Assembly (NCBI GenBank): GCA_937863685.1 | Contig: CALMGM010000005.1 | Span: 973,046-1,012,216 of the forward strand | Length of the DNA stretch: 39,171 nt | Source: an uncultured bacterium | GTDB taxonomy: Bacteria; Edwardsbacteria; AC1; EtOH8 | Direction: 5' to 3' | Part shown: positions 33,187 to 37,117 of the stretch, piece after piece | Layout: each line of letters begins with the position of its first letter | Numbering within the stretch: the stretch's first letter is position 1 | Translations under genes and position numbers: made by a program | Notes under the pieces: model-generated | The model's database searches: none | The model's input: only the letters and a program-made list of their open reading frames with translations | Told to the model about the DNA's origin: nothing

Positions 33187-33588
33187 TTATTTATTATCCT
33201 TGATCAGCAGCCTGACACCGATGGCGATCAGGATCAGCGGCCAGACCAGGCTGAATTTGAAATGGAACAGGCCGTAATTATGCAATAAAATACCGATCCC
33301 CAGGATGATGACCAGTATCCCGAACACCGCGCCGGACGGATCGCGTTTCATGGCCGGATTCCTTTCTTCGGTATTTGACGGAGTTTCGTCTTGGCCCGAG
33401 GAACGGGTTTGCCGGGGAATGATCAACCAGGCCGCCAGGTACAGCATGATCCCCAGCCCGCCGGCCAGGGCCAGTATTATAAAGATGATGCGGGCCAGGA
33501 GCGGATCGATGTCAAAATAATCTGCCAGGCCCCCGCAGACCCCGGCCACCATCCGACCCTTATCGGAGAGATACAAACTTTTGGGCAT
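33187..33588 (-). CDS. PspC-domain protein with C-terminal membrane domain
   Basis: A 133-residue membrane protein. The PspC domain (about 1-58: YLSDKGRMVAGVCGGLADYFDIDPLLARIIFIILAL...YLAAWLIIP) is followed by a charged linker and a second pair of helices (GAVFGILVIILGIGILL, SLVWPLILIAIGVRLLI) like the LiaF/DUF5668 N-terminal segment. PspC proteins take part in envelope-stress sensing. It directly follows another, shorter PspC gene; its ATG has no Shine-Dalgarno and lies 9 nt after that stop, so translation is likely coupled. Confidence 0.88.
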   Translation of the reverse strand: MPKSLYLSDKGRMVAGVCGGLADYFDIDPLLARIIFIILALAGGLGIMLYLAAWLIIPRQTRSSGQDETPSNTEERNPAMKRDPSGAVFGILVIILGIGILLHNYGLFHFKFSLVWPLILIAIGVRLLIKDNK

Positions 33589-33932: not shown

Positions 33933-35186
33933 TTAATCGGTCGCTGCCGTCTTCTGCGCTTTGGGCTGTCTGGGCGGGGCTTGATCCCTAGTCCCCAGTC
34001 GGGTGGTCCATACCGCGCCCATGCCCACGGTCACCCCGCACCACAGGACAATAAAGTTGATGATGAAGAATATCACGCCCAAAGCGCTCAGCGGGCTGCC
34101 GGCGATATTGATCAGGCTGCCCAGCAGGAACAGGGAGTGGAGCAGCACAAAGCCCAGCACCACCGCCGGCAGGGTGTTCATGGGCGGCTTATTGAAGGCG
34201 TGCAGGAATTTCTGGTTGATGATCACCCCGAAGCTGGCGATGCTCATCAGGATTCCGGCCACCACCAGCAGGACCGCCAGCGGTATCAGGGGGATGCCCA
34301 GGATGGAGACCGCCATGAATACCAGGGCCGGGGCCAGGGATATCTGCACCAGGAATCCGATGCCGGCCGACTTCCAGAAATCGGTCTCGATTATATGGGT
34401 AATGCGCTCGATGGGCCTGGAGAAGAACACTCCCAGCAACGTCACCAAAATGCCCAGCCCGGCCAGCATGAAGAAGGTGATGAAAAATTTTATGGCCCGT
34501 CCGGCGGCCGGTTTTTTGTGGGTAATGTGAGCCGTGCCGATCAAGCTGGGAATGAACTGGTTAAGCATTCCTAAATCCACGTTCTTTATCTCCCCGCTGA
34601 CCTGGGCGCCATCGGCCCTATCCACCTGGCCGCCTACTATGGCAATATCGCCGCCCACCGAGGAAGTCGGCCCCAGCCTGACCATCCCGCCGAAGGATGC
34701 CAGCTCGCCGCCCACCGTTCCGTCTATGGAGACCGGGCCGCCGAAGGTGGCCACATCGCCCTTGACCGTCCCGGAGACTGTGGTGCCCCCGCCGAAAGTG
34801 GCCACGTCGTGCATTACCGTGCCGTTGACCGTCACGCCGCCGCCGAATGTCACGCAGTCGCCGTTGACCATGCCGTCCACGGTGATCGAGCCGCCCTTGG
34901 TGACCACATCATCGTTAATGGTATCGGCCGGGCCGACGTAGATATCACCCACCTTGGCATCCTTGGCGTCGATCTGAACTTCTTTGTCGCCGATCTTGAA
35001 CTTGTAAGTGGTGTCGGAATCACCTTCGCCGATCCCCTGGATTCTGATGGTGGTCTTCTTGTCCAGCAGCTTGGTCCCCACCACTTTTTCCTCGGCCAGA
35101 CCGGTAGTTACCGCCGCAACCAGGGCGATCACCGTCAGCAGGACAAGCCAGCCGGGCTTTGAGGTATGCCTGTTTAATTTGAACAT
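33933..35186 (-). CDS. Bactofilin-like beta-solenoid membrane protein
   Basis: A 417-residue protein. Residues 1-31 are a signal peptide or anchor. Residues 35-92 form a small domain. Residues about 97-200 are a right-handed solenoid with 17-residue rungs (FGGGVTVNGTVMHDVAT, FGGGTTVSGTVKGDVAT, FGGPVSIDGTVGGELAS), as in bactofilin (polymer-forming cytoskeletal, DUF583) proteins. Residues 230-395 contain four or five membrane helices. Bactofilins polymerise as envelope-associated scaffolds; here the solenoid would face outside the cytoplasm if the signal is cleaved, which is unlike classical bactofilins. An AAAGGAG site supports the ATG. It is the third gene of the ECF sigma operon, hence a likely target of that regulator. 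Confidence 0.82.
   Translation of the reverse strand: MFKLNRHTSKPGWLVLLTVIALVAAVTTGLAEEKVVGTKLLDKKTTIRIQGIGEGDSDTTYKFKIGDKEVQIDAKDAKVGDIYVGPADTINDDVVTKGGSITVDGMVNGDCVTFGGGVTVNGTVMHDVATFGGGTTVSGTVKGDVATFGGPVSIDGTVGGELASFGGMVRLGPTSSVGGDIAIVGGQVDRADGAQVSGEIKNVDLGMLNQFIPSLIGTAHITHKKPAAGRAIKFFITFFMLAGLGILVTLLGVFFSRPIERITHIIETDFWKSAGIGFLVQISLAPALVFMAVSILGIPLIPLAVLLVVAGILMSIASFGVIINQKFLHAFNKPPMNTLPAVVLGFVLLHSLFLLGSLINIAGSPLSALGVIFFIINFIVLWCGVTVGMGAVWTTRLGTRDQAPPRQPKAQKTAATD
34587..34898 (-). repeat. 51-bp repeats encoding solenoid rungs
   Basis: About six imperfect units of 51-54 bp in the bactofilin-like gene, corresponding to residues 97-200. They are coding repeats of the beta-solenoid, not an independent element. 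Confidence 0.7.
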
Positions 35187-35206: not shown

Positions 35207-35779
35207 TTATATTTTTGAATTTATATAAATTCTTTTGGAGGTGACGGCGATGATGGCAAAGGCCGCGATGCTGGCGATGGCTATTTGAGCCGGCAGATTC
35301 GATCCTTTAAGCAGGGTGACGGCCACCTGTCCCAGCAGGTCCATCATATCGGCCAGCCGCAGCCCGGCCTTGACCATGATCACCTGCAGGTTGGGCAATG
35401 CCTTTACAAAACCCTTGGCCAGGGAGAATGTTTTGAAAGGATCCAGCTTGTTCAGACCGAAAGTCAATCCCAGGCCGAATATCACCAGCCACAGGGAGCT
35501 AACCGATACCACGGCTCCGGTGGCCCATTTGATCAACGGGTTTAAATGCGGTGCCTTATATTCCAACCCCAGGGCATTGAAAATGCTGGCATTGAACTCG
35601 GGGCCGACATTGGGCAGCGGCATGGTTTTGACCGATTCGGCCACCAAATTGAGCAAGCGGTAGTCGGCAGCGCAGGAACGACAGATCCTCAGGTGGGTCT
35701 TGACTGTTATAACCTCCTGGTTTTCAAGGGAATTGTCTATCAGCTCCTGAAGCCTGTTTTTTATCTCTTTGCATTCCAT
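35207..35779 (-). CDS. Anti-sigma factor with zinc-finger domain (zf-HC2)
   Basis: A 190-residue membrane protein. The N-terminal zf-HC2/ASD motif is visible as C3, H29-x3-C33-x2-C36 (HLRICRSC). Two hydrophobic segments follow (about 85-108 and 163-182). The cytoplasmic zinc domain would hold the adjacent ECF sigma factor inactive at the membrane; the region between the helices may sense the signal. It begins 81 nt after the sigma stop, with GGAG 8 nt before the ATG, and is followed 20 nt later by the bactofilin-like gene. Confidence 0.88.
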   Translation of the reverse strand: MECKEIKNRLQELIDNSLENQEVITVKTHLRICRSCAADYRLLNLVAESVKTMPLPNVGPEFNASIFNALGLEYKAPHLNPLIKWATGAVVSVSSLWLVIFGLGLTFGLNKLDPFKTFSLAKGFVKALPNLQVIMVKAGLRLADMMDLLGQVAVTLLKGSNLPAQIAIASIAAFAIIAVTSKRIYINSKI

Positions 35780-35860: not shown

Positions 35861-36421
35861 TTATCCATAGCCCAATTTGAACAGTTTTTGTTTCATTATA
35901 TCCCTGGCCCTAAAGAGCCGGACCTTGACCGTGCCCACCGGGATATCCAGCGACTGCGATATCTCCTCGTAAGAAAGCTCCTGCTGGTGCCTTAAAATCA
36001 GTACTTCGCGGTAGAGGGGCGGCAGGGTGCCCAGCACCTTGTCAATCAGTTCCTGCTGGGAGGCGGCTTCGATCTTTTCCTCCAGGGATATCTGGGTGTC
36101 CTCGATATCCACCGGGTTTTCCTCGTCGTGGATGGAGAGCGAGTCGGGTTTCTGGGCCCGCAGGAAATCGATGGCCGAGTTGTGGGCGATCTTGAACAGC
36201 CAGGTAAGAAAAGGATAGGACGGGTCGTAGCTGGCGAAGCTTTTATAGGCCTTGATAAAGGTCTCTTGGGCGATATCCTCGGCATCGCTCTGGTTGTGGA
36301 CCAGGCGGAAAATGAGGGCGAACACCTGCCGTTTATAGCGGTTGATCAGATCGTTGAAGGCCCGGCTGTCGCCGGCCAGACAGCGGTCTATCAGTATCTG
36401 GTCTTGGTTTTCGGAAGCCAT
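35861..36421 (-). CDS. ECF (RpoE-type) RNA polymerase sigma factor
   Basis: About 186 residues from ATG 36421 (MASENQDQILIDRCLAG). The open frame runs to 36499, but the first 26 codons overlap a promoter and operator and do not fit the family. Region 2 is DLINRYKRQVFALIFRL and DAEDIAQETFIKAYKSF; region 4 is LPPLYREVLILRHQQELSYEEISQSLDIPVGTVKVRLFRAR. Spacing is that of group 4 sigma factors. The gene heads the sigma-anti-sigma-bactofilin operon. The -10 of its promoter ends 6 nt before the ATG and there is no Shine-Dalgarno, so the mRNA should be leaderless. The promoter is sigma70-like, not an ECF-type promoter, so simple autoactivation is not indicated. Confidence 0.93.
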   Translation of the reverse strand: MASENQDQILIDRCLAGDSRAFNDLINRYKRQVFALIFRLVHNQSDAEDIAQETFIKAYKSFASYDPSYPFLTWLFKIAHNSAIDFLRAQKPDSLSIHDEENPVDIEDTQISLEEKIEAASQQELIDKVLGTLPPLYREVLILRHQQELSYEEISQSLDIPVGTVKVRLFRARDIMKQKLFKLGYG

Positions 36422-36427
36422 GGAGTT

Positions 36428-36460
36428 AGTATAGCATTTAGATTTGACCGGTGTCAAATC
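36428..36460 (-). promoter_or_regulatory. Sigma-factor promoter with an operator-like inverted repeat
   Basis: Minus strand: -35 TTGACA (36452-36457), 18-bp spacer, -10 TATACT (36428-36433), then AACTCC and ATG. A perfect 8-bp inverted repeat with a 4-nt centre, GATTTGACACCGGTCAAATC (36441-36460), covers the -35, where a bound protein would block RNA polymerase. Confidence 0.7.
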
Positions 36461-36489: not shown

Positions 36490-36519
36490 TTGAAGGCATG
36501 ATGCGTAAGAATGTATTAT
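36490..36519 (+). promoter_or_regulatory. Possible plus-strand promoter into the structured gap
   Basis: -35 TTGAAG (36490-36495), 18-bp spacer, -10 TATTAT (36514-36519). It points into 36530-36850, where no convincing gene is present. It could serve an untranslated RNA or be fortuitous in AT-rich DNA. Confidence 0.35.
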
Positions 36520-36540
36520 TATATTAAAAGAAAACCGTTA

Positions 36541-36810
36541 TGTCATTCCCATGAAGATGGGAATCCAGACTACATTTTCGACAGATAATATTCTGGAGAC
36601 CTTCTTTTCGTTGCCGAACGAAAAGAAGCAAAAGAACTCTTGGGGTGTGGGGCCTTCGTTTATCGAACTGAAAACGACAATCAATGCATTATCAGGAATA
36701 ATCTAAGCTTCTATTCGGCCTTCGCTTCCGCTTCCGGCCATGCGACATATCGCTACCACACCCCAAACCCCGCAACGTCTGATCTACCGGATTGACCGGC
36801 CGATCAGACG
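36541..36810. repeat. Structured gene-free region with several hairpins
   Basis: 36541-36568 is a GTCATTCC-type repeat. 36601-36628 is a perfect 12-bp inverted repeat CTTCTTTTCGTT / AACGAAAAGAAG with a 4-nt loop. An 11-bp inverted repeat TTGGGGTGTGG (36640-36650) / CCACACCCCAA (36756-36766) encloses 105 nt. CGTCTGATC (36776-36784) / GATCAGACG (36802-36810) is a third. The stretch 36422-36916 contains no convincing gene; it may be a composite repeat element or a structured RNA. Confidence 0.5.
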
Positions 36811-36850: not shown

Positions 36851-36878
36851 AAAAGCCGGAAATTTTCCGGCTTCTTTT
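36851..36878 (-). terminator. Terminator of the 30-residue membrane ORF
   Basis: AAGCCGG / CCGGCTT stem (about 36853-36859 with 36867-36873, A/T-rich inner pairs). On the minus strand it is followed by TTTTTAGC, on the plus strand by CTTTTCT, so it may work both ways. It begins about 40 nt after the small ORF's stop. Confidence 0.65.
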
Positions 36879-36916: not shown

Positions 36917-37009
36917 TTACATTATGGATATCAGTAACAGGGCCAGCAGTGTTCCGATGGGGATCAAACCACCCCAATCTACGCTCTTGAGGTCTACAAT
37001 CTGTTTCAT
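36917..37009 (-). CDS. 30-residue single-span membrane peptide
   Basis: A 30-codon ORF from ATG 37009 to TAA 36917. It begins MKQIVDLKSVDWGGLIPIG and continues with a hydrophobic stretch (about residues 15-30, rich in Leu/Ile) ending in SIM, so it is a single-pass membrane peptide with a short N-terminal polar part. A near-perfect Shine-Dalgarno AAAAGGAG lies 6 nt upstream, and a terminator with a minus-strand T-run follows the stop. These signals are stronger than for many longer genes here. I recognise no family; small subunits of respiratory or transport complexes and stress peptides of this size exist, but no such partner gene is adjacent. Confidence 0.55.
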   Translation of the reverse strand: MKQIVDLKSVDWGGLIPIGTLLALLLISIM

Positions 37010-37117
37010 GGCTGTCTCCTTTTATTTGGAAAGTTTAATTTTTCTCGTTTCATGGGATACTACGCAAGGCCGGGGGGATATGTTACATAAAAAGTAAAAT
37101 ATTTATTTGAATAACGA

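Follow-up and report, generated by a model that had tools for sequence, protein, structure and literature searches.

The site upstream of an ECF sigma factor gene is best explained as a housekeeping promoter, which serves an envelope-stress operon of Candidatus Edwardsbacteria with genes for an ECF sigma factor, a zinc-finger anti-sigma factor and a PspC protein. The leaderless sigma70 reading of this promoter is well supported, to judge from the spacing and conservation of its elements. An inverted repeat overlaps the –35 element, and its interpretation as a repressor site is plausible in one genus only, where we would give it about an even chance; this is the weak point of the whole account. 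A palindrome-bearing leaderless promoter of a stress sigma factor is neat in design but not very unusual, and a microprotein gene with a SigW-like promoter, half a kilobase upstream, is a better lead than the dyad. The window referred to below is the whole stretch of DNA analysed, 39,171 nucleotides in length.

The sigma operon and its promoter

The order of genes in the operon is ECF sigma, zinc-finger anti-sigma, a 417-aa protein, a PspC protein and two M16 peptidases. The relevant features are:

36441..36460, minus strand: inverted repeat GATTTGAC-ACCG-GTCAAATC, operator candidate, 8+8-bp arms, core conserved in the genus
36452..36457, minus strand: –35 element TTGACA, with TTTGAC conserved in seven orthologous promoters
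36428..36436, minus strand: extended –10 element TGC-TATACT, with TGnTATACT in seven orthologous promoters
35861..36421, minus strand: ECF sigma factor gene, 186 aa, predicted to be leaderless from ATG 36421 (Pfam Sigma70_r2, Sigma70_r4_2)
35207..35779, minus strand: anti-sigma factor, zinc finger (HxxxCxxC, motif read in the sequence) plus membrane part (Pfam zf-HC2)
33933..35186, minus strand: 417-aa protein, conserved in the operon, no Pfam match
33187..33588, minus strand: PspC-domain membrane protein (Pfam-type domain match)

The sigma protein is assigned to the ECF type by its content of Sigma70_r2 (7e-21) and Sigma70_r4_2 (1e-17) and no other regions. SigW is the nearest NCBIfam model, but the protein fails its equivalog test (NF007223, 158.5 bits against 209 required). 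The neighbouring protein, which would hold the activity of the sigma factor, matches zf-HC2 with 23.7 bits (cut-off 22.2), and the adjacency of the two genes is preserved in all seven other genomes compared.

The promoter region reads GGATTTGACACCGGTCAAATCTAAATGCTATACTAACTCCATGGCTTCC on the minus strand. Direct reading bears out the initial annotation in that TATACT (36433–36428) ends six bases, AACTCC, before the sigma ATG (36421–36419), and in that the promoter is sigma70-like: it has the form TTGACA-N18-TATACT, TG precedes the –10 element to make it an extended one, and 11 of 12 consensus positions are matched. With its –10 element at 6–8 nt from the start and no Shine–Dalgarno sequence, the gene has the properties taken here to indicate leaderless expression. 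The sigma70 polymerase would begin transcription on the A of the ATG or on a neighbouring base, as the conserved spacing suggests, giving a leaderless sigma mRNA.

Ten genomes of the family (G000–G009) were examined, several of them drafts. Orthologues of the sigma gene are present in nine; the ECF genes of the tenth, G009, are all more distant. In seven of the nine promoters TTTGAC and TGnTATACT are conserved and the ATG follows after exactly six bases; four of these promoters belong to the window's genus (g1), two to g2 and one to g3, and their –35 and –10 elements are separated by 18 nt in g1 and by 17 nt in g2 and g3. In the fourth genus, g4 (G006 and G008), a search near the sigma start gave no sigma70-like promoter. 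The leaderless sigma70 geometry, shared by seven of nine orthologues in three of four genera, is thus ancient, and the –10-N6-ATG spacing that the initial annotation had noticed is a conserved one.

It could be supposed that translation begins instead at an in-frame ATG at 36499, 78 nt before 36421, which would place the dyad inside an N-terminal extension. Consistent with this, the intervening stretch has neither stops nor indels in all four genomes of the genus. However, the sequence before 36499 contains no Shine–Dalgarno motif (nor does that before 36421), synonymous sites are frozen within the promoter core, and the equivalent of 36421 is the start in orthologues from other genera. The proportions of synonymous and non-synonymous change are alike in the G000–G001 pair (0.11 and 0.13), although synonymous change is the higher in the other five pairs (0.26–0.32 against 0.08–0.19). 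The start at 36421 is predicted with the better support because the shared N-terminus of the family orthologues begins there, no Shine–Dalgarno motif distinguishes either ATG and the stretch between them carries no purifying protein signal; a start at 36499 is very improbable.

Further upstream, at about 36540–36570, lies a GGGAATGACA stretch that resembles the end of a dispersed repeat and is common to all four genomes of the genus. A second promoter, ATGACA-N17-TATAAT (36546–36518), was considered and treated as likely to be a chance match, because, of the aligned sequences, G003 alone shares its –10 element and because its –35 element lies inside the common GGGAATGACA stretch.

The inverted repeat over the –35 element

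The initial annotation described a perfect inverted repeat covering TTGACA. The overlap is as stated, and both 8-bp arms pair fully, but the four-nucleotide centre, ACCG, is not symmetric. A dyad search gave one match in the whole window and none in 100 shuffles. The annotation had also proposed a search for the same palindrome before orthologous genes and regarded its absence there as evidence against the proposal. It is indeed present in all four genomes of the genus, where the arms pair at 8/8 positions in two and 7/8 in the other two and the TTTGAC-N4-GTCAAA core is intact in 4/4; outside the genus, however, it is absent from all five orthologous promoters.

The reading that we favour, though we hold it to be no surer than the toss of a coin, is that the dyad is a candidate genus-specific repressor site with a single target. 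In g1 only, the –35 element and spacer would have become an 8+8-bp dyad, most likely bound by a dimeric repressor that blocks recognition of the –35 element. Such a repressor would serve the one sigma promoter and be encoded elsewhere. Each of the four g1 genomes contains a single copy of the exact core and the six others contain none; the core therefore defines no regulon. With up to one mismatch the four genomes, when pooled, are close to the level of the reversed control (29 and 23 sites), although the window's own genome taken by itself has 11 and 3. Apart from the sigma site, TTGACN4GTCAA occurs 12 times in the genus; the 11 sites inspected (the G000:C12 site had no locus) all lie inside long open frames. 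A global regulator was rejected on the single-copy core and on this location of the other sites, so that a global repressor is unlikely and a dedicated, unlinked one possible. The repressor-type site of the initial annotation thus stands as an operator-like dyad kept throughout one genus, without the linked repressor that the annotation had proposed to look for: no DNA-binding regulator was found among 38 proteins scanned around the sigma operon, a set that covers only some of the window genes at distances of at least 13 kb. Beyond this neighbourhood the survey of regulators covered the Crp HTH family.

That family is of interest since Crp/Fnr half-sites are TTGAC/T, similar to those of the dyad, and one Crp-type HTH protein scores above the cut-off in each of the four genomes of the genus. 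Similar HTH matches, however, occur in all the other genera examined, which are without the dyad, and the location of the other 11 TTGACN4GTCAA sites within long frames indicates that there is no Crp/Fnr regulon. Binding by a regulator of this type accordingly seems highly unlikely. In MerR operators the dyad is centred in the promoter spacer; an operator of this type was rejected on geometry, as the present dyad covers the –35 element.

The main rival to the operator reading is that there is no operator, and that the –35 flank and the spacer came to mirror each other by chance in a conserved leaderless sigma70 promoter. The chance dyad would have become fixed in the common ancestor of the genus and would have persisted owing to the shortness of the spacer and the close relationship of the species. 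We consider this a serious contender, somewhat short of an even chance. The promoter geometry predates the dyad, being kept without it in G004, G005 and G007, and there is neither a second copy of the dyad nor a linked regulator. When the sigma promoter was shuffled around fixed hexamers, arms of at least 8 bp arose in 422 of 100,000 trials (0.4%); this is rare per promoter, yet about one or more would be expected per genome with hundreds of promoters, and taken by itself the dyad provides no strong evidence.

What tells against chance is the near-complete freezing of the spacer beside a freely varying flank, at a dS of 0.43–0.90 for the sigma gene among the four g1 genomes. From TTTGAC to TATACT, 1 of 31 columns varies, compared with 18 of 41 in the adjoining upstream stretch (Fisher p = 8e-5), and in the spacer alone 1 of 19 varies against the same flank (p = 0.003), in four genomes that are closely related and not independent. 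Even so, other promoters of the genus are just as frozen. In six other leaderless-type groups the variable spacer columns number 0/19 (two genomes), 1/18, 2/18, 6/18 (three genomes), 6/19 and 7/19 (two genomes), in groups that were drawn from exact-hexamer matches and so lean towards conserved promoters. The frozen spacer of the sigma promoter is therefore not unique. This comparison used 7 of 11 orthologue groups; four were dropped for an ATG without a clear shared long frame, and one (RNEGF) was retained although its frame stops early too.

Operator-like dyads do occur in the promoters of these genomes, as indicated by 9-bp-arm dyads in 2 of 52 other promoters, compared with 0.25% (arms of at least 8 bp) in shuffles; of the 57 loci given, a promoter was found for 54, of which 52 were distinct. 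Both dyads lie in promoters with a leaderless-type gap and are operator candidates for other genes: that of L181 (G004:C27:550-589) overlaps the –10 element, and that of L134 (G003:C5:13527-13567) lies over the spacer and –35 element. Separately, a palindrome, CCGGCCGG, was seen in a leaderless-type promoter of the four genus genomes (G002:C4:580638-580675, G001:C14, G003:C52 and G000:C5:915733), in which 1 of 18 spacer columns varies; the change, in G001, falls in the palindrome.

The microprotein gene and its SigW-like promoter

Upstream of the sigma gene the following features were recognised:

36853..36873, minus strand: terminator separating the microprotein and sigma genes, in the form of a stem-loop with T-run; palindromic, listed on the plus strand, with the T-run on the minus strand
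36917..37009, minus strand: 30-aa hydrophobic microprotein MKQIVDLKSVDWGGLIPIGTLLALLLISIM with ribosome-binding site
37056..37087, minus strand: SigW-like ECF promoter TGTAAC-N17-CGTAGTATC before the microprotein

The microprotein precedes the sigma gene in all nine genomes that have the orthologue, with two copies there in G007. It has no Pfam match and, among 41 genomes searched, was found only in the family (by score in 7 of the 10 family genomes and in 0 of 31 others), the g4 copies being recognised by motif or by eye only. It is a single helix, typically with (D/E)W(G/D)GLIP, and further copies occur elsewhere in G007 and G005; the loci besides that of the window are L162, L163, L164, L165, L166, L037, L044 and L010.

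A near match to TGAAAC-N16/17-CGTAnTnTC stands ahead of 9 of 10 microprotein ORFs; in G004 TGAAAC is kept, together with CGTCCGCAC. The Bacillus subtilis SigW consensus is given as TGAAAC-N16,17-CGTA in PMC2375139. Across the ten genomes, GAAAC-N15-18-CGTAnTnTC has 19 matches against 8 for the reversed control; seven lie before the microprotein, six before envelope-type genes (two DUF2807, two Sensor, one signal peptidase and one outer-membrane efflux protein) and six without a convincing gene. The window's own DUF2807 gene has no such motif in the preceding 120 bases.

These promoters suggest what the sigma factor recognises. The proposal that they are its targets is made because promoter and microprotein adjoin the sigma gene in all nine genomes, and it is from this adjacency that we infer that the sigma factor, rather than a paralogue, reads them. 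Its own promoter type (TGAAAC-N16/17-CGTA) would then be found not at the sigma gene but upstream of the microprotein gene, and the two together supply a candidate motif for the targets of a sigma factor from a phylum without cultured members. A more elaborate scheme, which we regard as unlikely and which would so far be confined to Edwardsbacteria, is a two-promoter stress switch: the leaderless sigma70 promoter, with its own dedicated repressor in one genus, would supply the sigma factor, which would drive the 30-residue membrane microprotein; this might exert feedback on PspC or on the anti-sigma factor in the membrane, with read-through of the terminator leading to autoregulation. A literature search for Edwardsbacteria with sigma factor found no papers.

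Leaderless expression and known systems

The initial annotation treated the leaderless arrangement as something special, but it is a common mode in the family. Over the ten genomes, a gap of 6–8 nt between –10 element and start gives 105 matches and a gap of 13–15 nt gives 31, with 0 and 3, respectively, for the reversed-pattern controls. In G002, the one genome for which a gap histogram was made, TTGAC-N17-19-TATAMT followed by ATG has 52 matches, 15 with a gap of 6–10 nt, 3 with 11–19, 31 with 20–33 and 3 with 3–4. Leaderless sigma70 promoters are thus indicated to be in wide use in Candidatus Edwardsbacteria, the sigma gene being a concrete conserved regulatory example.

The dyad resembles the textbook repressor operator at a –35 element in that its 8-bp arms cover this element; it differs in that the candidate site is single-copy and confined to one genus and in that its repressor was not found nearby. 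With SigW-type systems the operon shares a sigma factor of regions 2 and 4 only, an adjacent zinc-finger membrane anti-sigma factor and a target-like promoter, TGAAAC-N16/17-CGTA (the SigW consensus as cited by PMC2375139). In contrast to SigW, the sigma protein is below the model cut-off (158 versus 209 bits), and its own gene has a sigma70-like promoter, the ECF-type promoter being placed before the upstream microprotein gene. In the leaderless genes of Deinococcus radiodurans the –10 motif lies about 6–7 bp before the ORF (PMC12340547), and in a survey of bacteria at large (PMC3160421) such signals stand about 10–12 bp ahead of the start codon in many of them. The sigma gene shares with the Deinococcus-Thermus genes both this –10 distance and the lack of a ribosome-binding site; it differs in that its promoter, whose start is a predicted one, has a near-consensus –35 element, an extended –10 element and an overlapping dyad.
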